A stretch of DNA of 64,000 nt from Synechococcus sp. BSA11S. Its GTDB lineage: Bacteria; Cyanobacteriota; Cyanobacteriia; PCC-6307; Cyanobiaceae. Shown here in pieces: positions 1,379 through 35,920 of this stretch; within the stretch, counting starts at the first letter, position 1, and every line of letters begins with the position of its first letter. The DNA lies in NCBI RefSeq assembly GCF_014224355.1, contig NZ_VNWP01000013.1, forward strand, positions 1-64,000, read 5' to 3'. The notes beneath the pieces were generated by a model, which was not told where the DNA came from, did not search any database, and saw only the letters and a list, made by a program, of their open reading frames with translations. The position numbers were made by a program, and so were the translations under genes.

Positions 1379-1430
1379 TCCTCCTTCGGCTTCGGGGATC
1401 CGCACCGTCCTTCGGTAGGAAAATTGGCGG

Positions 1431-1703
1431 ATGTGCGCGACGATCAGTCAAGCTGAGCAGATGGATGTGGCCAAATCAAGCTTGACGCTGCGCCCCCTAC
1501 CAACAGCCGTGGTGCTGCTGTGTGCCGGCATTGGCGCCTGTGTACTGGGTGCCTTCTTCACCTTGACCCTGGTTCCTGTCCTGGTGATGGTGGGCTTCGT
1601 CGCCACCTTCCTTGTGGCGGCACTGGCATGTGCCTGGGCTGGGGTGGAGGCCCTCGCCGCTCTTGAGCGCTGGCTGGAGCGTGATTCCCGCTTCCAGCGC
1701 TGA
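1431..1703 (+). CDS. Small two-helix membrane protein, unknown function
   Basis: This 90-residue product has two long hydrophobic segments (about residues 24-47 and 50-72) and a charged C-terminal end. An AGGA sequence lies about 10 bases before the ATG at 1431; an in-frame ATG at 1461 is an alternative. Its stop shares one base with the start of the next gene (TGATG at 1701-1705), so the two are translationally coupled and probably act together in the membrane. I do not recognise a named family. Confidence 0.7.
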   Translation: MCATISQAEQMDVAKSSLTLRPLPTAVVLLCAGIGACVLGAFFTLTLVPVLVMVGFVATFLVAALACAWAGVEALAALERWLERDSRFQR

Positions 1704-2143
1704 TGTCCCGTCAGCTGCCTTGGTTCTGGATCCTGCTTGCTCTCCTGGTGCTGGCCGCTCCCACTCCCCTGGGGCGTCTCCTTCTCGATCTGCTCGGAGG
1801 CCTCACCCTGGCGGTTCTCCTGCTCCCTCTGCTTCTGGCTGGCGCAGGGGCTGTGGCCTTTCAGATCCTCAGGCGACGGGTTCGCACCTGCACCGTCTGC
1901 GGTCTGACCAGCCTGGCGACCAGCCAATGCCCGGGGTGTGGCGCTCCCCTGTCAGAGAACAACGGTGCTGAGTCAAATCCTTTTGTCCAGAATGATCCTT
2001 TGGTCGAGCGACCGCCTTCGGATCTTGCCAGCTTCTTGCGGCGGTCTGGCGGCGGCAGACAATCTGAACCACTCAGCAATGCCAATCTCGACGTCAGCGA
2101 TGTCACCATCGATGTTGAATCTCACGACGTCGATGCCCACTGA
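1703..2143 (+). CDS. Membrane-anchored zinc-ribbon protein, unknown function
   Basis: The 146-residue protein has one or two N-terminal hydrophobic helices (about residues 8-55), then a zinc-ribbon type CxxC-x10-CxxC motif (CTVC and CPGC, about residues 63-79), then a polar, probably disordered tail. The topology suggests a metal-binding knob just after a membrane anchor. It is coupled by a TGATG overlap to the upstream small membrane protein. No enzyme motif is visible and I cannot name the family. Confidence 0.75.
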   Translation: MSRQLPWFWILLALLVLAAPTPLGRLLLDLLGGLTLAVLLLPLLLAGAGAVAFQILRRRVRTCTVCGLTSLATSQCPGCGAPLSENNGAESNPFVQNDPLVERPPSDLASFLRRSGGGRQSEPLSNANLDVSDVTIDVESHDVDAH

Positions 2144-2272
2144 GTGCTGAGTTGAACTGCAATCAGTCCGCTTTTTGAGCTGGGTCAGCCTTTTTTTGCT
2201 AATCGGTCTTTTTGTGCTATTCGGTTAGGGGGGGTGAGCTTGTTCATCGACCTCAACCAATCACCTGATCGC

Positions 2273-2692
2273 TCAAGGCTGCGTGGATGCTCCACGGCTG
2301 ATCTCCAGCAGGCGGCGTTCCCTCAGAAACAGAAAGAATGGCGCAGCGAAGGCGAAGGCGATCGTCACGCTGCCAAGCAGCACGATCCAAAGTCCTCGCA
2401 TCTTCAGCCGGCGGGCCTCCACGATGATCCAGATCGTGATGGCCGATGCCCCGATCAGCAGATCCCTGGACAGAGAACGCGCTGCCGGATTGACGTTGGC
2501 CAATTCGATGAACTGCGTCAGATCGAACGCTTGGCCGTATTCACGGATGTAGTCGGCGTTGGCCAACCAGGGGAAAACAGCTCCGCCCACGGCCAGGGCC
2601 AGATAAAGCCACTGCAACCAGGGGGACGGCACCAGGGGAGTTGTGATCCCTGTGTTGCTTGTTTCGCCGGCTGGGTTGCTGGCAGGGGTCAT
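2273..2692 (-). CDS. DUF2834 family membrane protein
   Basis: The 139-residue product carries the DUF2834 signature: an IREYGQAFDLTQFIELA segment, then NPAARSLSRDLLIGA, and a WIIVEARRLKMR helix boundary, within about three membrane segments. The family is common in cyanobacteria and has no established function. Its start overlaps the end of xseB by 4 bp (ATGA type), so it is the last gene of an xseA-xseB-DUF2834 unit. Confidence 0.88.
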   Translation of the reverse strand: MTPASNPAGETSNTGITTPLVPSPWLQWLYLALAVGGAVFPWLANADYIREYGQAFDLTQFIELANVNPAARSLSRDLLIGASAITIWIIVEARRLKMRGLWIVLLGSVTIAFAFAAPFFLFLRERRLLEISRGASTQP

Positions 2693-2991
2693 GGTTGGGC
2701 CTCCAGGGCCTTGAGATCGAGTTCTTCCACCTGCTGCTGCACCTGAAGGAGCACCTGCTCGCAGCGATCGGCATAGGCCACCGCTCGCTTGTAAAGGCCT
2801 GCCATGGCTTCCACCTCCAGATCCTCCGACTGCAGCGCTGCCAGCGTGAGTTCAAGCGCTGTGCGGCTCTGGGCAAAACTCATCTGCCGGGTCTCTTCCA
2901 GCCAGGCTGCGTCGTCAGCTGTCGATCCGCCCGGTGCCGGGGCGACATCCTCGGAGGTCTGGGTGATGGGTTGACGCTTGCGGGTGCTCAT
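2689..2991 (-). CDS. xseB: Exodeoxyribonuclease VII small subunit
   Basis: This 100-residue product has the XseB core of two helices, with FAQSRTALELTLAALQSEDL, then LYKRAVAYADRCEQ and a C-terminal coiled-coil arm. XseB binds XseA to form exonuclease VII, which degrades single-stranded DNA from both ends. It overlaps xseA by 4 bp, the normal coupled order. The first 25 residues are polar and not part of the family core, so the true start could be slightly later. Confidence 0.92.
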   Translation of the reverse strand: MSTRKRQPITQTSEDVAPAPGGSTADDAAWLEETRQMSFAQSRTALELTLAALQSEDLEVEAMAGLYKRAVAYADRCEQVLLQVQQQVEELDLKALEAQP

Positions 2992-4190
2992 GGGGCTGGG
3001 GGCTCATGGCGGCGCTCGGTGACGCGGGCTGCGGCCGCTCCATCCAACCACTGCACCACCAGCATCTGGTCGACGTCCACCTGCTGGATCGAGCGCAGGA
3101 GTTCGCCGGATTCAGCACGCACCAGGCAAAACCCCCGCTTCAGCAGCTGCTTGGGAGAGAGGGCATCCAGCAGCTGACGCCGCTGCAGCAGCAGGGCCAG
3201 CTGCCGTTGCAACAGGGCATGGGGCTGGAGCTGCTGCAGGCGCTGGCCCAGCAGGGCCAACCGTTGCTGCTCCCGATCCAGCTTCCAGCGAAGGATCTGA
3301 TGCAGTTGCTGCTGGCGTTGCCGCAGCTCCTGGCGGAGTGTGCGCTGGTCAGGCAGCAGGGCCACGATGGCCGCAGTTGGTGTGGCCGCACGATAATCAG
3401 CCACGAGGTCAGCGATCGTGGTGTCGTCTTCGTGGCCGAGTCCGGTGACCACCGGTAGAGGCAGGGCCGCCAGGGTCAGGGCCAGCTCCTCACTGTCGAA
3501 CACAGCCAGATCCTCGCGGTTGCCGCCGCCTCGGGCCAGGACCACCGCTTCAATGCCAAGCCGTTCAGCCGCCTGCCCCACCGCGTTGAGAGCCGCGCAG
3601 ATGGTGTTCACAGCAGCGCCCTGGACAGGAATCGGAACCACAAGAATCTTGGTGGCGGGCCAGCGTTCAGCAGCCGTACGCAGCATGTCGGCCAGGGCGG
3701 AGCTGGGGCTGCTGGTGAGCAGCGCGATCACAGCTGGGCAATCCGGCAGGGGCTGTTTACGGGAGGGCTCGAACAGGCCCGTACCCTCGAGCTGCTCCCT
3801 GACTCGCTCGAACTGGCGCAGAACGCTGCTGAGGCTGGGGCGGATGTCGAGGGCCTGCACGCAGAGGCTGGCGCGTGCGCCCCAGAAGTTGAGCTTTCCG
3901 ACAACGATGACTCCGTCGCCATCGGCTGGAGTGAAGCTCAGGCGAGGCCGTTGCGAGGCCCACACCACGGCGGAAATCGAGGCAGCCTCATCGACAAGGG
4001 TCATCCAGAGGTGGCCTTTCTTGAGCTGTGGCCGCGCGACCGTGGCCTCCAGGAGAAAACGGGGGGCGAAGCCGCGCTCCAGCAATGTGCCTATCGAGCG
4101 ATTCAGGTCGCTGACGCTGTAGCGGGGGAGAGCCTGGCCGGTCCCGTCTGCCGCCGGATCGCTGATCCTGGTCGAATCCAAGCGCGTCAA
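2988..4190 (-). CDS. xseA: Exodeoxyribonuclease VII large subunit
   Basis: The 400-residue protein has an N-terminal OB fold (about residues 20-120, with FLLEATVARPQLKKGHLWMTL) and the exonuclease core with VLARGGGNREDLAVFDSE and VVTGLGHEDDTTIADLVAD, followed by a coiled-coil region that contacts XseB. It is the catalytic subunit of exonuclease VII. The start is a TTG at 4190 that overlaps the stop of a tiny upstream gene by two bases, which supports this start. xseB follows with a 4-bp overlap. Confidence 0.93.
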   Translation of the reverse strand: MTRLDSTRISDPAADGTGQALPRYSVSDLNRSIGTLLERGFAPRFLLEATVARPQLKKGHLWMTLVDEAASISAVVWASQRPRLSFTPADGDGVIVVGKLNFWGARASLCVQALDIRPSLSSVLRQFERVREQLEGTGLFEPSRKQPLPDCPAVIALLTSSPSSALADMLRTAAERWPATKILVVPIPVQGAAVNTICAALNAVGQAAERLGIEAVVLARGGGNREDLAVFDSEELALTLAALPLPVVTGLGHEDDTTIADLVADYRAATPTAAIVALLPDQRTLRQELRQRQQQLHQILRWKLDREQQRLALLGQRLQQLQPHALLQRQLALLLQRRQLLDALSPKQLLKRGFCLVRAESGELLRSIQQVDVDQMLVVQWLDGAAAARVTERRHEPPAP

Positions 4191-4363
4191 TGCTGTAGTC
4201 GCCCGTAGCAGTATCCCCAGTAGAGACTGATCGCGGAGGCCGCGAGAAAGAGGACTCGTCCGATCGGGTGGTCGAAGCGAGTCAGGCCCGCTGCGCAGAC
4301 CAACAGAGCTGTGCTCAGCAGACGGGATCCGTCACGCCGATTCTTGACGAAGAATGGAGCCAA
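4187..4363 (-). CDS. Small membrane protein coupled to xseA, unknown function
   Basis: A 58-codon frame from a TTG at 4363 ends in a TGA that overlaps the TTG start of xseA. The product begins with a basic segment, has a helix like LLSTALLVCAAGL, the sequence TRFDHPIGR, and a second helix ending in LYWGYCYGRLQH. Two-helix composition, clean end at the xseA start and a GGGGG about nine bases before the TTG argue for a real gene. The frame is open further upstream to 4405 but holds no ATG or GTG. No family is recognised. Confidence 0.6.
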   Translation of the reverse strand: MAPFFVKNRRDGSRLLSTALLVCAAGLTRFDHPIGRVLFLAASAISLYWGYCYGRLQH

Positions 4364-4426
4364 GGGCGCGAACCCCCAAAGACACCGACAAGTCTGGCTG
4401 ACTGCTCAGGCTGACTGTCCCCCTAT

Positions 4427-4465
4427 GAAAAACCCACCGCCTCCGGCTGAAGGAGACGATGGGTT
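4427..4465 (-). terminator. Terminator after the high-light-inducible gene
   Basis: Read on the minus strand, AACCCATC-TCTCC pairs with GGAGG-GGTGGGTT across 4430-4465, with a short loop, and is followed by a run of T. It lies 23 bp after the stop of the high-light-inducible gene and separates it from the xseA unit, which therefore needs its own promoter between about 4364 and 4426. Confidence 0.7.
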
Positions 4466-4487
4466 GCTGGAATGGAGCTCGGCTTGC

Positions 4488-4634
4488 TCAACCCAGACCG
4501 ATCTGGGAGAGGATGCCCTGCCCGGTGAGCAGTTCGGTGGCCAGACCGATGACGAAACCGAGCATGGCGAGGCGGCCGTTCCAGGTTTCTGCGAAGTTGA
4601 CGAAACCGAAGCGGGGTTGGGTGGCGTCAGACAT
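4488..4634 (-). CDS. hli: High-light-inducible protein (one-helix LHC-like)
   Basis: The 48-residue product has the chlorophyll-binding LHC motif FAETWNGRLAMLGFVIGL followed by ATELLTGQGI, the hallmark of cyanobacterial Hlip/Scp proteins. These bind chlorophyll and carotenoid in the thylakoid membrane and protect photosystem II assembly under excess light. The ATG at 4634 (MSDATQPRFGF) matches family length; in-frame ATGs at 4646 and 4655 would add four to seven residues, and an upstream open frame to 4784 is probably not translated. It is monocistronic with its own terminator. Confidence 0.93.
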   Translation of the reverse strand: MSDATQPRFGFVNFAETWNGRLAMLGFVIGLATELLTGQGILSQIGLG

Positions 4635-4780
4635 GGATGGATCCATTGGGCTCATGAACTGTAACGAATCTTGGAGCTGTCTTGACGAAGGGGTGCTGGG
4701 GATTGGCTTGTACGGATTGCCGACTGCGGCCCTGGCGTTCCAGTGGCGGGCGTTGACCAGCGGCTCCATCACAGGCTGAG

Positions 4781-26890: not shown

Positions 26891-26915
26891 ACCCCGGCAT
26901 TGCCGGGGTTTTTTT
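26891..26915 (+). terminator. Terminator after the DUF1400 gene
   Basis: The stem CCCCGGC (26892-26898) / GCCGGGG (26902-26908) has a 3-nt loop and is followed by seven T. Its T-run overlaps the end of the convergent rarA fusion gene. Confidence 0.9.
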
Positions 26916-29205
26916 ATGGCTGGTCACGGTTCGCCTCCCCTGCCTGCGGCGACGGCGACGGCGACTGTGCCGGGCGGCGGGCGATGAGGCGATTGTGGCG
27001 CAGCCGCTGGGGCAGACGTGCTCCGATTCGATCGCGAAATCCTGCTTCCAGCCGATTGACTTCCCCAGCGCTCATCGCAGCCTCCAGCCGACGACGGTAG
27101 GGCGCCTCCGGGCCGAACCAGCGCTGAAGGGCGGTTTCGCTCAGCTCCAGGGTCAGGAACTCCTGCCAGCTTTCCAGCTCCACCGCCCATCCCAGCTCCT
27201 CCAGCGCTGCGGAGAGTTCAGTGGCGCCGGGATGAGGCGCCAGCCAGCCCTCTTCCTGGAGGGTGAGGCGCCGCAACAGGTTCGTCAGTGATGGGTCCTT
27301 GGAGACGTTGGAAGGGTCCCCAGGCTTCTCCAGCAGCTCAGTGAGCGCACCGGCGGGCCCCAGCAGGGGCTCACTCAGCAGCAGGCGCCATTGCGCCCTG
27401 GGGCTGCACAGCTGATTGAGCTGCTGCAACCACTGGAGCCAGAGCGCTGGCGCCAGCCCCTGGAACGGCGAGCGGGCCACCAGCCACTCGAACCGTTCCC
27501 CTGGCTCGATCGCGGCGGCCAGCTTCCGGGGGCTGGTGGGCTCCAGCAGGAGCAGCCGCGGGCTGCGCAGGCTGTCGAGCAGCTGGCTCTGGGCCTGCAG
27601 CCGCTCCAGATCCGCCGCCGCATTCACGCCGATCAGCACGCCCCCCTCGGGACTGGCCTCCAGGGGATCCAGCGCCCAGAGCAGGGAGCGGGCTGCGACG
27701 ATCAAAGTCCGGTCCTGACGTTGCCAGCGGGCTCCGTCCCAGAAGCGCTGGCGGAGCTGGTCAAGCCGCTCACCCTCAGCTCCGGCCTGGCGCTGCAGCC
27801 AGCGCTCCAGTCCAGCGTCGTCCGGCCCGCTGCTGAGCAGAAGGCCCGAGTCGGCGGAGCTCTCAGCCGCGGCCGAGAGCTGGGCGGCACGTCGCCGCTG
27901 CAGCCGCTCCTGGAGTGTCCCCTCCCAGCCGAGGCGTCCCGGCAACCAGAACACCTCGCCCTGAAGGGCTGCGGGCAGGTAGGTCTGGGCCACCCAGTGC
28001 TCGGCGTAGGCGTGGGGATACCGGTAGCCGACCCCATCACCGAAGGCAGCCCCATCCCGGTTGGCGTCCCGCAGGTGGGAGGGCACGTCCTGGCGGTTGG
28101 TGGCTCGCACGCTCTTGAGGGCGTCAAAGAACCCCAGCACGCTGTTGCTCTTCTCGGCTCCGGCCAGGTAGAGCGCAGCCTGAGCCAGGGGATAGAGCCC
28201 CTCCGGCAATCCCACCCGCTCGAAGGCCGCCGCACAGGCCTCCACCACCACGACCGCCTGTGGGTCCGCCAGGCCGATGTCTTCCCCGGCGGAAATCAGC
28301 ATGCGCCGGAAGATGAAGCGGGGATTCTCCCCGGCTTCCACCATGCGCGCCAGCCAGAACAGGGCAGCATCCGGGTCGGACCCTCGCAGCGACTTGATGA
28401 AGGCGCTGATCGTGTCGAAGTGGGCATCCCCCTGCTTGTCGTAGAGCACGGCCCTTTGCTGGATCGACTGCTCGGCGATCTCCAGGTCGATCCGGATCAC
28501 CCCGGTGTCATCGGCGGGGCTGCTCTCCACCGCCAGCTCCAGGGCGTTGAGCAGGCTGCGGGCGTCACCCCCGGCCACATCGAGGAGGTGATCGGCCGCC
28601 TCGGAGCTCAGCTCCACCGCCAGGCCCCCATAGCCCCGCTCCTCGTCGGCCAGGGCTCGCTTCAGCAGGACTCTCAGGTCGCGGGGCTCGAGCGGCTGGA
28701 GACGGAACAGCCTGGAGCGGCTCACCAGGGCCTTGTTGACCTCGAAGTAGGGGTTTTCGGTGGTGGCGCCGATCAGGGTCACGGTGCCGTTTTCCACCCA
28801 GGGGAGCAGGGCGTCCTGCTGGGCCACGTTGAAGCGATGCACCTCATCGATGAACAGCAGGGTGCGCAGGCCGTGCCGCTCCAGCCGCTGGCGTGCGGCC
28901 TCCACCTCGACGCGCAGGTCCTTGACCCCCGCAAGCACGGCGTTCAGGCTGGTGAAATGGGCCCGGGTGGTGCTGGCGATGATTCGCGCCAGGGTGGTCT
29001 TTCCCACCCCCGGCGGCCCATGCAGGATCAGGTTGCCCACCCGATCGGCCTGGATCGCCCGCCGCAGCAGCCGCCCTGGGCCGAGGATCTCCTGCTGCCC
29101 CACGAACTCTTCCAGGTTGCGGGGGCGCAGGCGGTCCGCCAGGGGGGCCAGGGCCTGGCGGGTGATGTCCCCCTGATGGCTGAACAGGTCGCTCAAGGGC
29201 TGCAT
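26914..29205 (-). CDS. rarA: RarA/MgsA AAA ATPase fused to a C-terminal domain
   Basis: The 763-residue protein has a RarA half (residues 1 to about 420): Walker A HGPPGVGKTTLA, Walker B LLFIDEVHRFN, sensor 1 IGATTENPYFEVN, and the C-terminal lid with YRYPHAYAEHWVAQTYLP. RarA acts at stalled replication forks. From about residue 440 to 740 there is a second region with a leucine-rich, partly Rossmann-like pattern (RTLIVAARSLLWAL, then GVNAAADLERL), a layout compatible with the methyltransferase-like fusion known from cyanobacterial RarA proteins; no clear SAM motif is visible. Confidence 0.9.
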   Translation of the reverse strand: MQPLSDLFSHQGDITRQALAPLADRLRPRNLEEFVGQQEILGPGRLLRRAIQADRVGNLILHGPPGVGKTTLARIIASTTRAHFTSLNAVLAGVKDLRVEVEAARQRLERHGLRTLLFIDEVHRFNVAQQDALLPWVENGTVTLIGATTENPYFEVNKALVSRSRLFRLQPLEPRDLRVLLKRALADEERGYGGLAVELSSEAADHLLDVAGGDARSLLNALELAVESSPADDTGVIRIDLEIAEQSIQQRAVLYDKQGDAHFDTISAFIKSLRGSDPDAALFWLARMVEAGENPRFIFRRMLISAGEDIGLADPQAVVVVEACAAAFERVGLPEGLYPLAQAALYLAGAEKSNSVLGFFDALKSVRATNRQDVPSHLRDANRDGAAFGDGVGYRYPHAYAEHWVAQTYLPAALQGEVFWLPGRLGWEGTLQERLQRRRAAQLSAAAESSADSGLLLSSGPDDAGLERWLQRQAGAEGERLDQLRQRFWDGARWQRQDRTLIVAARSLLWALDPLEASPEGGVLIGVNAAADLERLQAQSQLLDSLRSPRLLLLEPTSPRKLAAAIEPGERFEWLVARSPFQGLAPALWLQWLQQLNQLCSPRAQWRLLLSEPLLGPAGALTELLEKPGDPSNVSKDPSLTNLLRRLTLQEEGWLAPHPGATELSAALEELGWAVELESWQEFLTLELSETALQRWFGPEAPYRRRLEAAMSAGEVNRLEAGFRDRIGARLPQRLRHNRLIARRPAQSPSPSPQAGEANRDQP

Positions 29206-29294
29206 GGCGATGAGAGGACAATCCTGGGATCAACCCCCGGGGTGTGCAGTCGGCGTCATCGGGCTGCAGAATCGGGCAACTCTTGTCACCTTGC

Positions 29295-30386
29295 GTGAAG
29301 CGTTCCTGTCTGGTGATTCCGGCCGCTCTCGGTCTGCTGGCGGCTGGTCTCAGCGGCTGTGGGGATCCACCCAAGCCACCCCCCCGTCAGGTTCAGGTCA
29401 AGACGGAGCCGGTGACCCAGGCCCGTTTCAGCGACGACGTGGACACGATCAGCACGCTTGAAGCCCTCAGTGTGGTGGAGCTGGCGGCCCAGGCCGGCGG
29501 ACGCATCGAGCGCCTGCTGGTGCGACAGGGCGATGTGGTGCGTCAGGGGCAGCTGCTGATGGTGCTCGATCAGGTGCAGGTGCGTGCTGATGTGGCCAGT
29601 CTGCGCGCTCAGCTCGAGAGGGATGAACTGAACTACAAGCGCTTCGAGTTCCTGGTGCGCCAGGGAGCGGCCAGTGCCCTGCAGCGCGACCAGTTCCGCG
29701 CCCAGTTCGTGCAGTCGAGGGAGGCCTTGCGGGCCCGCGAGGCCGATCTGGCCTTCAGGGATCTGCGCTCCCCCAGCGATGGGGTGATCAGCGATCTGCA
29801 GGTGAAGGTGGGTGATGTGATCAGTGCCGGCGATCCCTTCACCAAGGTGGTGCGCAATGACCGCCTCATGGCCCGCATCGACGTGCCCGGTGTGCTCACC
29901 GCCCGGGTCAGGCCCGGACTACCGGTGATTCTGCAGGAGCCGCAGTCCCCGAAGGTGCTGGCCCGTGGGGTGGTCAGTTCCGTTGATCCGGCCGTGAACG
30001 CCGGCGACCAGGCCCTGCTGGTGAAGGCTGAATTCGCCAATCCCACCGGCGCCTTGCGCACCGGTCTGCGACTGCGCACCAGGGTCCAGCTCGCTGCGGC
30101 CGATCTGCCCTCGGTTCCCTTCGCGGCTGTCACCCAGACGGCAGGCCAGAGCTTCGTGTTCGCCCTCGGCAGCCTCCAGGATCTGGAGAAGAACCCCGGA
30201 AAGGCCTCTCTGGACCAGTTGCGAGAGTTGCCCCCGGGCAGCAGATTCGCCCTGCAGCGCCCGGTGCAGCTCGGACCGCTGCAGAACAATCGTTATCCGG
30301 TCCTGCGCGGTGTGACACCCGGTGAACGGGTGATCACCACGAATCTGCTCACCCTGCGTCACGGCACACCCGTGACGGCACAGTAG
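29295..30386 (+). CDS. RND efflux periplasmic adaptor (membrane fusion protein)
   Basis: The roughly 363-residue product has a lipoprotein signal with lipobox LSGC (about residue 20), a lipoyl-like half motif (IERLLVRQGDVVRQGQLLMVLD), a coiled-coil hairpin, the second lipoyl half (DLRSPSDGVISDLQVKVGD) and a beta-barrel domain. It links the inner-membrane pump to an outer-membrane channel. GTG 29295 is preferred over GTG 29244 because it places the signal peptide at the N-terminus. The pump gene follows 13 bp later. Confidence 0.92.
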   Translation: MKRSCLVIPAALGLLAAGLSGCGDPPKPPPRQVQVKTEPVTQARFSDDVDTISTLEALSVVELAAQAGGRIERLLVRQGDVVRQGQLLMVLDQVQVRADVASLRAQLERDELNYKRFEFLVRQGAASALQRDQFRAQFVQSREALRAREADLAFRDLRSPSDGVISDLQVKVGDVISAGDPFTKVVRNDRLMARIDVPGVLTARVRPGLPVILQEPQSPKVLARGVVSSVDPAVNAGDQALLVKAEFANPTGALRTGLRLRTRVQLAAADLPSVPFAAVTQTAGQSFVFALGSLQDLEKNPGKASLDQLRELPPGSRFALQRPVQLGPLQNNRYPVLRGVTPGERVITTNLLTLRHGTPVTAQ

Positions 30387-30399
30387 GAGCAGAAGCCAG

Positions 30400-33300
30400 A
30401 TGTCCGCTTCAGACAATTTCATCACCCGGCCGGTTCTCACCGTCGTCTGCAGTCTTCTGATTGTGATCGGAGGTCTGATCGCGATTCCACTGCTACCCGT
30501 GGAGAACCTGCCCGACATCGCACCGCCCACTGTGACGGTGAATGCCACCTATAACGGCGCCGACGCGATCTCCGTTGAGGAAGGTGTCACCAATGTGCTG
30601 GAGCAACAGATCAACGGGGTGGAGAACATGGACTTCATCACCTCCTCCAGCGCCGCTTCTGGGACCAGTGCCATCACCGTGTCGTTTGCGAGCGGAACTG
30701 ACGGTGACATCAATCAAGTCAATGTTCAGAACCGGGTGGCCCTGGCCCAGCCCCAGCTTCCCGAAGAGGTCAGGCAGTCTGGTGTTGTAGTTAACAAGGC
30801 TTCAAACTCGATTCTTCTTGTTTATAACTTTGGAAGTGACGATGCGAAAAATCCTTATAGCACGGAGTTCATCAGCGGCCTGCTTGACCAGAGACTCACC
30901 GATCGGATCAAGCGTGTCAAAGGGGTGGGCAATGTCGCTTTCGCCGGCAACCGTAAGCTGGCCTTTCGGCTCTGGCTCGATCCTGATCGTCTCGCCGCCA
31001 ACAAGCTCAGTTCCGCTGATGTCGTCGATGCCCTGCGCAGCCAGAGCCGGCTGGTGCCTGCGGGTCAGGTGGGGGGGGAGCCGGCTCCGGAAGGGCAGGA
31101 GTTCACTTTCACGGTGCAGCTGCAGGGGCGGCTGCGCAGCGCCGAGGAGTTTTCCAATCTGATTCTGCGAAGTACCGGAGAAGGTGGTCTGGTACGGCTG
31201 CGGGATGTGGGTCGTGTGGATCTAGGGGCTGAAACCTACGATGCCAACGCCACCGATCTGGAAGCGGTCCCCTCCGTGGGTCTGCTCGTCTACCAGTTGA
31301 GTGGCAGCAATGCTCTTGAGGTGTCTCAGGGGGTCAAGGATGTGCTGGATGATTTCAGCCGCGAGATTCCGCCTGGAATCAAGATTGAGAAGATCTACGA
31401 CACCACCGACTTCATCAATGCCTCGATCAAGGGGGTCACCAATTCCCTGCGCGATGCTGTGGTGCTCGTTGTTCTGATCCTTTTTCTGTTCCTGCAGAAC
31501 TGGAAGGCCACCCTCGTGCCTGGGATTGCCATCCCTGTGGCACTGGTGGGCACCTTCCTGTTCGTGAAGGTGGCCGGCTTTTCACTCAACCAGCTCACCC
31601 TCTTCGGCCTGGTGCTGGCCACAGGCCTTGTGGTGGATGATGCGATCACAGTGATTGAGGACACCTCTACCAAGAAGGGCCAGGGGATGACGGCTGTTCA
31701 GGCAGCGATGAGCACGATGAATGAACTCTTCGGTGCTGTGATTGCCACCTCGCTAGTACTGTTCGCTGTTTTCCTCCCTGTTCTTTTCTTCCCAGGGGCT
31801 ACTGGAACAATCTACAAGCAGTTTGCCGCCACGATCATCTTTTCGGTGGCGATCTCTACCTTCAATGCCCTGACGTTCTCGCCGATGCTCTCGGCCCTGC
31901 TGCTCGCCCGCGATGGAACCCCCCCTGGGCGGCGCACCTACGCCATCGCAGGAACCTCCATTGGCTTCGTCTATGGGCTGTTGGTGAGTGGCGAAGGAGC
32001 CCTGCAGGTGTTGGGGGCCGTGGTTGTGGGCCTTTTGCTGGGCTACCTGCTGGGGCTGATCACCCAACTGCCCCTGCGGCTTCCTTTCACCATCGGGGCG
32101 GCGATCATCGGTCTGGTGCTGGGTGGTGTGACCCAGCCGTTCTCCGTTCTGATCTTTGCGCTGATCGGACTTGCGCTTGGTTTCTTCCTTGAGCCGATCT
32201 TCACGCGTTTCAACAAGCTCTACGCTGCCGGCGAAGGAGGTTATAAGAAGGGTTTGGGCTGGGTGCTCAGCCATCGCGTCCTGATCATGGGGTTCCTGGT
32301 GGGTGGGATCGCCCTCACGGGCGTGGCCTTCACTTCGATCCCCTCTGGTTTTGTGCCGATCGAGGATCAGGGGTATGCGATCGGCTTTGTGCAGGCCCCC
32401 GACGGCGCCTCGGAGCAGAATACCCGGGTCATCAACAAGCAGGTTGCCGAGATCTTGCGCACTGAGAAGGACATCAGTACGGCGGTGATCATCAGTGGCT
32501 TCAGCCTGGATGGCAATGCTCCCAACAAGGGACTGTTTTTCTTCGGCACCCGGAACTGGTCTGATCGTCCTGATTCCGATCAATTCGTGGACGCCATCGT
32601 GGAACGGCTGAACCGCAAGATGGCGGCGATTGATGGGGGCAGGATCTTCGTGGTCGAACCACCAGCCATACCAGGCTACGGAACCTCTGGTGGCTTCGAG
32701 TTTCAAATGTTGGATCAGAGCAGCGGAGCCTTAAGCCTTCCAGAATTCTTTGCGAATGCCAACCAGCTGATCGCCAAAGCAATGCCCACTGGGATTTTTA
32801 GCAGGGTGTTCACGCAGTTCACGCCAGAGTCCCCCCAGCTCAAGGTGAGTGTGAATCGAGATCAGCTGGCGGCCTTGAACGTGGATTACGGTCAAGCGAT
32901 GCAAGCTTTCACCTTTTACTTTGGCGGAGCTTATATTAACGACACGTTCCAGGAGGGCAAGATCCGCCGCGTCTATGTGCAATCGGATGCTCCATTCCGG
33001 GCTACACCGCAGCAACTCAAATCGCTGTTCGTGAACAACCGCATCGGCGAGCCTGTCCCGCTTGCAGAGGTGTTCACGGTGGAGCCTGCCACCGGTCCGT
33101 CGGTGATCCCCCATTTCAACCTGTACCGTTCAATCAAGGTTGAAGGCTCACCAGCTCCTGGTCGCAGCTCCGGTCAGGCCATCAAAGGTATGACCGATGC
33201 CTTTGACCAGCTGGGGACCAATGGTCTCAGTTTCGACTGGACAGGACTTTCAAGAGAGGAGGTCAAGGCCGGCGCCCTTGCCATCGTGATCTTCGGATTC

Positions 33301-33813
33301 GGCATACTGGTTGTGTATCTCGTGCTTGCCGCGCAATATGAAAGTTACAGTGATCCACTGATCATCCTGATGACAGTGCCCACCGCGATGCTGGGAGCCC
33401 TCGCTTTCCTGGCCGCAAGGGGTGAAGTGCTCAACATCTACGCCCAGGTGGGCTTGGTGATGCTGATCGGCCTGGCGGCCAAGAATGGAATCCTGATCGT
33501 TGATCTGGCTAACCAGCGCATGGCCGACGGGGCCACAGCTTATGAGGCAGCGAAAGAGGCTGCTGAATCCCGCCTTCGGCCGATCCTGATGACGGCCATT
33601 TCCTCCTTGTTCGGTTTCCTGCCCCTGGTGCTGGCCAGTGGTGCTGGTGCCCGCAGCCAGGCCTCCCTCGGCACGGTGGTGTTCGGTGGCCTGATGGTGG
33701 CCACCGTGCTCTCGCTGTTCGTTGTACCAGTCTTCTATGTCGTGATGAAGGGGCTGGTTGTCTCCGGTGACGACAAGACACCTCCCCCAGCTGTTCCATC
33801 GCCGTTGTCCTGA
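30400..33813 (+). CDS. RND multidrug efflux inner-membrane pump, with extra insert
   Basis: The 1137-residue protein is an HAE1/AcrB-type RND transporter. The proton-relay acidic pair is in TGLVVDDAI (about residue 411) and the lysine in GLAAKNGILIVD (about residue 1026). It is about 90 residues longer than AcrB because of a hydrophobic insert (about residues 505-600) between the sixth helix and the FNKLYAAGEGGY segment, with three or four helix-like stretches. An AGGAG lies about nine bases before the ATG. No outer-membrane channel gene is adjacent. Confidence 0.93.
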   Translation: MSASDNFITRPVLTVVCSLLIVIGGLIAIPLLPVENLPDIAPPTVTVNATYNGADAISVEEGVTNVLEQQINGVENMDFITSSSAASGTSAITVSFASGTDGDINQVNVQNRVALAQPQLPEEVRQSGVVVNKASNSILLVYNFGSDDAKNPYSTEFISGLLDQRLTDRIKRVKGVGNVAFAGNRKLAFRLWLDPDRLAANKLSSADVVDALRSQSRLVPAGQVGGEPAPEGQEFTFTVQLQGRLRSAEEFSNLILRSTGEGGLVRLRDVGRVDLGAETYDANATDLEAVPSVGLLVYQLSGSNALEVSQGVKDVLDDFSREIPPGIKIEKIYDTTDFINASIKGVTNSLRDAVVLVVLILFLFLQNWKATLVPGIAIPVALVGTFLFVKVAGFSLNQLTLFGLVLATGLVVDDAITVIEDTSTKKGQGMTAVQAAMSTMNELFGAVIATSLVLFAVFLPVLFFPGATGTIYKQFAATIIFSVAISTFNALTFSPMLSALLLARDGTPPGRRTYAIAGTSIGFVYGLLVSGEGALQVLGAVVVGLLLGYLLGLITQLPLRLPFTIGAAIIGLVLGGVTQPFSVLIFALIGLALGFFLEPIFTRFNKLYAAGEGGYKKGLGWVLSHRVLIMGFLVGGIALTGVAFTSIPSGFVPIEDQGYAIGFVQAPDGASEQNTRVINKQVAEILRTEKDISTAVIISGFSLDGNAPNKGLFFFGTRNWSDRPDSDQFVDAIVERLNRKMAAIDGGRIFVVEPPAIPGYGTSGGFEFQMLDQSSGALSLPEFFANANQLIAKAMPTGIFSRVFTQFTPESPQLKVSVNRDQLAALNVDYGQAMQAFTFYFGGAYINDTFQEGKIRRVYVQSDAPFRATPQQLKSLFVNNRIGEPVPLAEVFTVEPATGPSVIPHFNLYRSIKVEGSPAPGRSSGQAIKGMTDAFDQLGTNGLSFDWTGLSREEVKAGALAIVIFGFGILVVYLVLAAQYESYSDPLIILMTVPTAMLGALAFLAARGEVLNIYAQVGLVMLIGLAAKNGILIVDLANQRMADGATAYEAAKEAAESRLRPILMTAISSLFGFLPLVLASGAGARSQASLGTVVFGGLMVATVLSLFVVPVFYVVMKGLVVSGDDKTPPPAVPSPLS

Positions 33814-34100
33814 TGTCCAGTTCGCCGGAGCCGCTCAAAGGACGCCGCATCGTTCTGGTTGGCCTGGGGGGTGGTTTGTTCGGCTTGGCTGTGAGCTTTT
33901 TTCTGCAGGCGATCGTGGCCAACACGCCTGTCACGGTGAGCTCTTACGCCATGTTCTGGTTTCGGCTGCTGCTGGGCGCCTTCGGCACCCTGGCGGGAAT
34001 GGCGATCGAAACCGTGCGTCAGCTGCAGGTCACCAATCCGGATCCGGCGTACCGCCAACCCGTCTTGCGAGGGGGAGGGCGCTCCAAAGGGCGTCCCTGA
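33813..34100 (+). CDS. Small membrane protein coupled to the RND pump
   Basis: The 95-residue product has two hydrophobic helices (GGGLFGLAVSFFLQAIVA and MFWFRLLLGAFGTLAGMAI) and a basic tail. Its ATG at 33813 shares a base with the pump stop (TGATG), so translation is coupled and it may be an accessory subunit, as AcrZ is for AcrB; it is not similar to AcrZ. No family is recognised. Confidence 0.75.
   Translation: MSSSPEPLKGRRIVLVGLGGGLFGLAVSFFLQAIVANTPVTVSSYAMFWFRLLLGAFGTLAGMAIETVRQLQVTNPDPAYRQPVLRGGGRSKGRP

Positions 34101-34135: not shown

Positions 34136-35920
<1,785 letters not shown>

Follow-up and report, generated by a model that had tools for sequence, protein, structure and literature searches.

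Picocyanobacteria appear to have enlarged the membrane domain of an AcrB-type efflux pump by a module of four helices, arranged as two tandem hairpins and placed where the two halves of six helices each join, immediately ahead of the surface helix along the trimer rim. We give this explanation as a whole, together with the roles proposed below for the module and for a small protein encoded beside the pump, a probability of about 0.5. The pump studied here is encoded in a window of 64,000 nucleotides from Synechococcus sp. BSA11S, which is the whole stretch of DNA that was analysed. The analysis confirms a lineage-specific enlargement of a known transporter; an apparently migrated lysine in sister pumps is its most surprising by-product.

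The pump and its locus

RND pumps of the AcrB type are textbook machines of 12 transmembrane (TM) helices. The features of the locus considered here are the following, with coordinates in the window.

26914-29205, minus strand: AAA-family ATPase, flanking gene
29244-30386, plus strand: periplasmic adaptor (membrane fusion protein), upstream of the pump; TIGR01730 178.7 bits against a cut-off of 94.9
30400-33813, plus strand: HAE-1 (AcrB-type) RND permease, 1137 aa; PF00873 at E 3.5e-297, TIGR00915
31636-31641, plus strand: D413-D414, proton-relay aspartates (AcrB D407/D408), from the alignment to AcrB
31759-31761, plus strand: L454 (AcrB L449, TM5), leucine here and lysine in 49 orthologues, from the alignment to AcrB
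31921-32187, plus strand: insert proper, residues ~508-596, two predicted glycine-rich helical hairpins between TM6 and the surface helix (alpha6-7), from alignments and AlphaFold models
31930-32064, plus strand: predicted hairpin 1, helices 511-530 and 534-555, from AlphaFold models
32077-32184, plus strand: predicted hairpin 2, helices 560-575 and 580-595, from AlphaFold models and hhalign likeness to hairpin 1
32188-32271, plus strand: surface helix Ialpha (alpha6-7), residues 597-624, with Tyr615 (AcrB Y527), from the model and the AcrB alignment
33481-33483, plus strand: K1028 (AcrB K940, TM10), lysine here and glycine in the same 49 orthologues, from the alignment to AcrB
33813-34100, plus strand: 95-aa two-helix membrane protein of the E..RQL family; its start codon overlaps the pump stop
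34136-35836, minus strand: phosphoglucomutase, flanking gene

Judged by its sequence, the pump belongs to a tripartite HAE-1 efflux system, of which it forms the inner-membrane permease: it scores 1045.6 bits against the HAE-1 profile TIGR00915, above the curated cut-off of 940.35, and the adaptor gene that HAE-1 membership calls for (TIGR01730 match) adjoins the permease. The full pump model has an AcrB-like fold (Foldseek E 4.3e-89, TM-score 0.86; best VIA Z 57.7, rmsd 2.5 over 1013 residues), and the PDB matches listed for the pump are of the AcrB/MexB/AdeB type, at 32-38% identity. AcrB, which is 37% identical to the pump over aligned residues, and MexB resemble it in fold, in the neighbouring adaptor gene and in the D-D-K-R-T proton relay, all residues of which are present (D413 and D414 in TM4, K1028 in TM10, and R1058 and T1065 in TM11, aligned with AcrB D407, D408, K940, R971 and T978). 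Since these core antiport residues are intact, transport by the window pump should work as in AcrB. Unlike the pump, AcrB and MexB have neither the four extra helices between TM6 and the surface helix nor a two-helix small protein encoded alongside. The cyanobacterial HAE-1 pumps of loci L116, L119 and L123 are 46-51% identical to the window pump and have a small E..RQL protein downstream, but carry a loop of about 15 residues where the window pump has the module.

The pump is proposed to be a tripartite exporter of hydrophobic compounds. Relatives in a broad sense are known from cyanobacteria. An RND-type system of Synechococcus elongatus exports free fatty acids, as stated in an excerpt of a paper that cites Kato 2015 (PMC4841976), and the excerpted text of another report presents an RND clade that is mainly cyanobacterial and in which only one pump has been described functionally (PMC10872679). 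The gene sync_2766 of Synechococcus CC9311, induced by ethidium bromide and mitomycin C, was considered as a counterpart and could not be linked to the window pump; its first residues, taken from a printed primer, differ from those of the window pump (PMC3744912).

The insert between TM6 and the surface helix

The earlier note, made on this DNA from its letters, had claimed an extra hydrophobic module inside the RND pump, and the claim is confirmed: about 85 extra residues lie between TM6 and the surface helix, four helices are modelled in them, and they are lineage-specific. The PF00873 profile covers the pump in two separate parts, residues 5-508 and from about 600 onward, and leaves about 90 residues between them unmatched; each of the other two RND genes found in this genome is matched in a single stretch. 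In two alignments of the pump with PDB sequences, the query skips from residue 506 straight to 597 in one and from 510 straight to 600 in the other, and in alignment E. coli K-12 AcrB has only a short loop at the insert site. Residues 505-604 of the window pump make up 100 residues; across 72 aligned pumps this segment measures 100-102 residues in 32, 52-57 in 18 and 11-17 in 22, the range for no-insert pumps overall being 11-23.

A full-length AlphaFold model, made from an alignment of 49 pumps (mean pLDDT 81.4, pTM 0.75), has helices at residues 511-530, 534-555, 560-575 and 580-595, followed by the surface helix at 597-624 and TM7 at 626-646. Modelled alone from 52 sequences, the insert reaches a mean pLDDT of 91.1 and a pTM of 0.78, with helices at the same places, and its last helix continues into the surface helix. 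Mean hydropathy is 0.92, 1.96, 1.59 and 1.59 for insert helices 1 to 4, 1.37 for TM6 and 1.93 for TM7. These values suggest that the insert helices likely sit in or on the membrane; the low hydropathy of helix 1 and the shortness of helix 3 (about 16 residues) and helix 4 (about 16 too in the full model) make re-entrant or surface hairpins possible.

The insert-alone model has no match among PDB or viral models at E <0.001 (best VIA Z 5.3), which does not show that its fold is new. No known family matches the window's insert below E 0.16. Among 52 relatives, the search for a known domain gave scattered weak matches only, of which TauE reached 2.7e-4 (3 members); bPH_10 was likewise rejected as the insert's domain, with matches that were weak, at best 3.7e-4, in 13 members up to E 1. 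In the open-access literature searched, we found no experiment on a pump with this insert and recognised no description of extra helices at the site between TM6 and the surface helix.

That the insert results from a sequencing, assembly or gene-fusion artefact is so improbable that it can be set aside, since the same insert stands in complete-genome records (Synechococcus WH7803 and SynAce01) and in many independent isolates. Chance is likewise excluded, because the insert is conserved across a picocyanobacterial family.

Distribution and history of the hairpins

The insert query matches 73 of 201 genomes of the family, seven of them in the single-hairpin form only. The insert profile finds 28 of 386 genomes of the phylum, all in the window's own picocyanobacterial family; three further matches, weak (E 0.003-0.007) and lying in open frames of 286-796 codons that look unrelated, are taken as chance. 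A set of 84,980 GTDB species yielded 152 related stretches, and among the best 80 of these 152 there are 78 cyanobacterial titles, mostly of Synechococcus and Cyanobium, and two other MAG titles. Typical picocyanobacterial pumps occur in MAGs labelled Phycisphaerae and Bifidobacterium breve (L214 and L261), probably on mis-binned contigs. Spread of the insert on plasmids was considered, and no plasmid match was found. The double-hairpin insert is thus far found only in the picocyanobacterial family. It is not a soluble or disordered feature of all cyanobacterial HAE-1 pumps: pumps with no insert exist, the profile is confined to one family, and the insert is predicted to be helical.

The two hairpins resemble each other. 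Comparison of hairpin 1 with hairpin 2 by hhalign gives E 2.5e-4, 8.5e-4 or 1.7e-3, depending on borders, and each is the other's best non-overlapping region of the pump, for hairpin 2 by a small margin (14.6 vs 14.2). A tree of 71 rows, built without the insert by a quick search with no bootstrap and with L121 excluded, contains a clade A of 32 double-hairpin and 8 single-hairpin pumps, a paralogous clade B of 10 single-hairpin pumps, and 19 cyanobacterial pumps with no insert; duplicates L004 and L065 had been dropped from the alignment. Each of the three groups has an SH-aLRT of 100, and their branching order is not fixed by the tree. Because the single-hairpin members of clade A sit at two separate points within it, a hairpin seems to have been lost there on two occasions, if two hairpins are ancestral in that clade; in the MAFFT alignment, the hairpin remaining in these pumps consists of the first and the last helix. 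The single hairpins of clades A and B are related (E 1.5e-6 in an insert-only comparison). From these comparisons we infer an order in which one hairpin came first, was doubled in clade A, and was followed by losses later.

Clade-A and clade-B pumps share one cluster in six loci (L095-L100), the order in L095 being pump A, small gene, adaptor-like open reading frame (by eye) and pump B. In L101 a clade-B pump (1424-4678) has a 4-base overlap with a downstream open reading frame of 311 aa that resembles, by eye, an alpha/beta hydrolase.

The module is a predicted helical element of kept length, present in one cyanobacterial family and less conserved than the core helices. In the 91 double-hairpin pumps of at least 1120 residues, the mean frequency of the commonest residue is 0.64 in the insert, 0.62 in the surface helix, 0.73 in TM7, 0.84-0.95 in the other core helices and 0.74-0.81 in the periplasmic parts, and mean pair identity (400 random pairs) is 0.52 for the insert, 0.84 for core helices and 0.70 for the periplasm. 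Such conservation, the tolerated loss of one hairpin, apparently in two places, and the variability of the linker and surface helix beside the insert also fit a dispensable decoration, in which a permissive joint accommodates hairpins that have no function and drift. We regard neutral decoration as unlikely, however, because the insert is 100-102 residues long in 126 of 126 double-hairpin sequences (100 in 104, 101 in 5 and 102 in 17), keeps conserved glycines, a tyrosine, a proline and a PLRLP turn, and has been retained across the family. In the explanation that we prefer, the module would pack peripherally near TM6, TM7 and the surface helix, where it may tune how the two halves move against each other or the surface that faces the membrane. 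The number of added helices seems always to be even (0, 2 or 4), which would let the second half keep its topology.

The small protein encoded with the pump

A small two-helix protein coupled directly downstream, also noted before, is indeed present. It is a 95-aa open reading frame with hydrophobic segments at residues 13-31 and 47-65 and a conserved E..RQL end, and its ATG shares a single base with the pump gene, the final one of the stop codon (TGATG). With small-gene starts assigned mechanically as the most upstream possible near the stop, the start lies 1 base (60 pairs) or 4 bases (25 pairs) inside the pump gene, so that 85 of 99 clade-A pairs overlap.

The pump set was reduced from 231 to 210 distinct members by identical last 700 residues, and counts therefore refer to distinct sequences, not independent species. 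A small gene lies directly downstream of 91 of the 94 judged double-hairpin pumps (absent from 3) and of all 8 single-hairpin clade-A pumps, and downstream of 1 of 10 judged clade-B pumps and 6 of 61 judged no-insert pumps; pumps that end at the border of their stretch were left unjudged (32 of 126 double-hairpin, 2 of 12 clade-B and 3 of 64 no-insert). Some no-insert pumps had been fetched because of the small protein (20 loci, with L165, L183 and L184 already known pairs); when loci fetched in this way are excluded, the no-insert count is 3 of 57, with L119 and L123 represented by their copies L184 and L165. False small open reading frames of L072 and L002 were dropped.

The small protein matches 75 of the 201 family genomes. 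Every one of the 73 genomes that the insert query matches is among these 75, and the 128 family genomes that it does not match yield just two small-protein matches, both weak (E 0.0014 and 0.0085). Across the cyanobacteria, relatives of the small protein occur in 62 of 386 phylum genomes at E <=0.01, the weaker ones being doubtful. Of 20 loci read for the small protein, 8 (L165, L170, L171, L172, L176, L180, L183 and L184) have an RND gene within about 5 kb, and in 6 of these it is upstream on the same strand. Twelve loci of other cyanobacteria (L166-L169, L173-L175, L177-L179, L181 and L182) hold relatives with no RND gene (phmmer E 1e-20) within about 5 kb. The small protein accompanies the pump, is spread more widely than the insert and is not bound to it.

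Assignment of the small protein to a known family was tried and rejected, both for CrcB (E 0.0012, 19.1 bits vs a cut-off of 126) and for other families, to which relatives gave scattered, weak matches (best 9.6e-4, 2 of 19). AcrZ, a single transmembrane helix, is like the 95-aa protein by analogy, as a small membrane protein that accompanies an RND permease. MexG of MexGHI-OpmD is an extra small membrane protein encoded with an RND pump, as is the 95-aa protein, but it is larger and belongs to the DoxX family. The 95-aa protein differs from AcrZ in having a gene that overlaps the pump gene and was rejected as an AcrZ-family member, having 95 aa and two hydrophobic segments vs 49 aa and one helix; among Pfam families it has no AcrZ match at E 1. 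AcrZ is described in an excerpt as a 49-aa modulator of AcrB (PMC7267776), and by analogy the small protein is most likely a dedicated partner that would modulate its pump as AcrZ does AcrB, independent of the insert.

Insert and small protein compared

The earlier note had joined both elements in a modified membrane domain with an accessory subunit. Its lineage-specific module and its small protein encoded with the pump have held; a functional tie between the two has not. If the insert were a docking platform, its four helices and the two-helix subunit would form one bundle, an idea suggested by their full co-occurrence (73 of 73 insert-bearing family genomes also match the small protein), by the overlap of the two genes and by the glycine-rich hairpins of both. 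Yet the small gene is missing beside double-hairpin pumps L113, L114 and L263 and beside 9 of the 10 judged single-hairpin pumps of clade B, it is present beside no-insert pumps L116, L119/L184, L123/L165, L170, L171 and L180, and loss of one hairpin left it in place (8 of 8). Partial distance co-variation of the insert with the small protein, with the core taken out, comes to 0.15, the second-highest value among 21 segments, the top value of 0.20 belonging to a periplasmic segment; the small protein thus co-varies with the insert about as strongly as with other parts of the pump. This comparison used 78 of 88 pairs, the small proteins of the other 10 having no anchor motif. As the two elements separate both ways and have no specific co-variation, the docking-site idea is not supported, and we consider it improbable.

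A common origin would be explained if the hairpin were a captured copy of the small protein, the subunit gene having been duplicated into the pump joint and then doubled. A broad small-family profile does match the insert at E 4.6e-5 to 4.3e-3 (12 comparisons), about as well as hairpin 1 matches hairpin 2; in none of six tests did any of 60 block-permuted inserts score as high as the real one, and when 136 pump windows were compared with the small protein, the 11 top-scoring ones all overlapped the insert. Narrower profiles, however, give only E 0.02 to 0.88, an HMMER search with the broad profile picks up none of the pump frames at E <0.01, and the aligned stretches are mostly 12-18 columns (one helix), with two of 36-38, and are sometimes out of register. 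For hairpin 1 a reversed insert comes close to the real score (23.7 vs 24.6; for the whole insert 23.4 vs 30.4), a permuted insert in one test reached 24.6 vs 25.1 for the real one, and glycine spacing alone may explain the likeness. Among 231 pump frames, none contains a small-family match at E <0.01 that would mark a natural fusion of pump and small protein. Homology between insert and small protein is only suggestive, and capture is in our view a doubtful origin for the hairpin; an AcrZ-like partner that acts independently of the insert is still the reading we prefer.

A possible relay lysine in TM5

The window pump has the canonical pair L454 in TM5 and K1028 in TM10. At the same two positions, 76 of the 126 double-hairpin pumps have L/K and 49 have K/G, one being truncated; all 20 single-hairpin pumps have L/K, and the no-insert pumps have L/K in 59, M/K in 3, I/R in 1 and Q/K in 1. 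A TM5 lysine is present in 49 of 49 TM10-glycine pumps, in 0 of 159 pumps that keep the TM10 lysine and in 0 of all 161 others of the 210. AcrB and MexB keep the TM10 lysine, whereas these 49 orthologues of the pump have one in TM5 instead. The K/G state is found in Synechococcus, for example in L224 (WH7803) and L212 (RCC307), and not in Prochlorococcus MIT 0701 or the Cyanobium rows; going by strain names and recall, we take the K/G clade to be mostly marine. On a second tree (99 rows, quick search, no bootstrap) the K/G state, held by 44 rows, needs two changes and may yet have a single origin, so that the perfect pairing rests on one or two events.

In AcrB, according to the excerpted text of one study, L449 lines an inhibitor pocket with D407, D408 and K940, and the pocket area is normally filled by K940 in the unliganded L protomer (PMC8749003). 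AcrB K940A is reported, in part of another, to be inactive in proton translocation and efflux (PMC4359379). The RND membrane domain is divided into a first half (TM1-6) and a second half (TM7-12), and the relay sits where TM4 meets TM10; the available section of the same source adds that the basic TM10 residue is not absolutely essential across the RND family (PMC5719797). Since the TM5 position lines the same pocket as K940, the lysine would have been moved, not lost: on the sequence comparison, the relay lysine seems to have moved from TM10 to TM5 and to lie now in the first half with the aspartates. The TM5 lysine is presumably functional. We recognised no description of it in the open-access literature searched.

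Implications for RND pumps

These pumps may form a remodelled AcrB-type class that combines a four-helix module at the joint, a dedicated two-helix subunit and, in a marine branch, a coupling lysine moved from TM10 to TM5, giving an Asp-Asp-Lys cluster in one half; we put this forward tentatively, at somewhat less than even odds. A pump family with 0, 1 and 2 hairpins in living relatives, together with a partner protein, is a natural series on the role of the joint and the surface helix. If the proposal is true, the K/G pumps would couple ions without a TM4-TM10 bridge between the halves, which would directly test the AcrB model. The moved lysine thereby bears on RND energetics, namely on whether the lysine has to connect the halves or whether a place next to the aspartates is enough.
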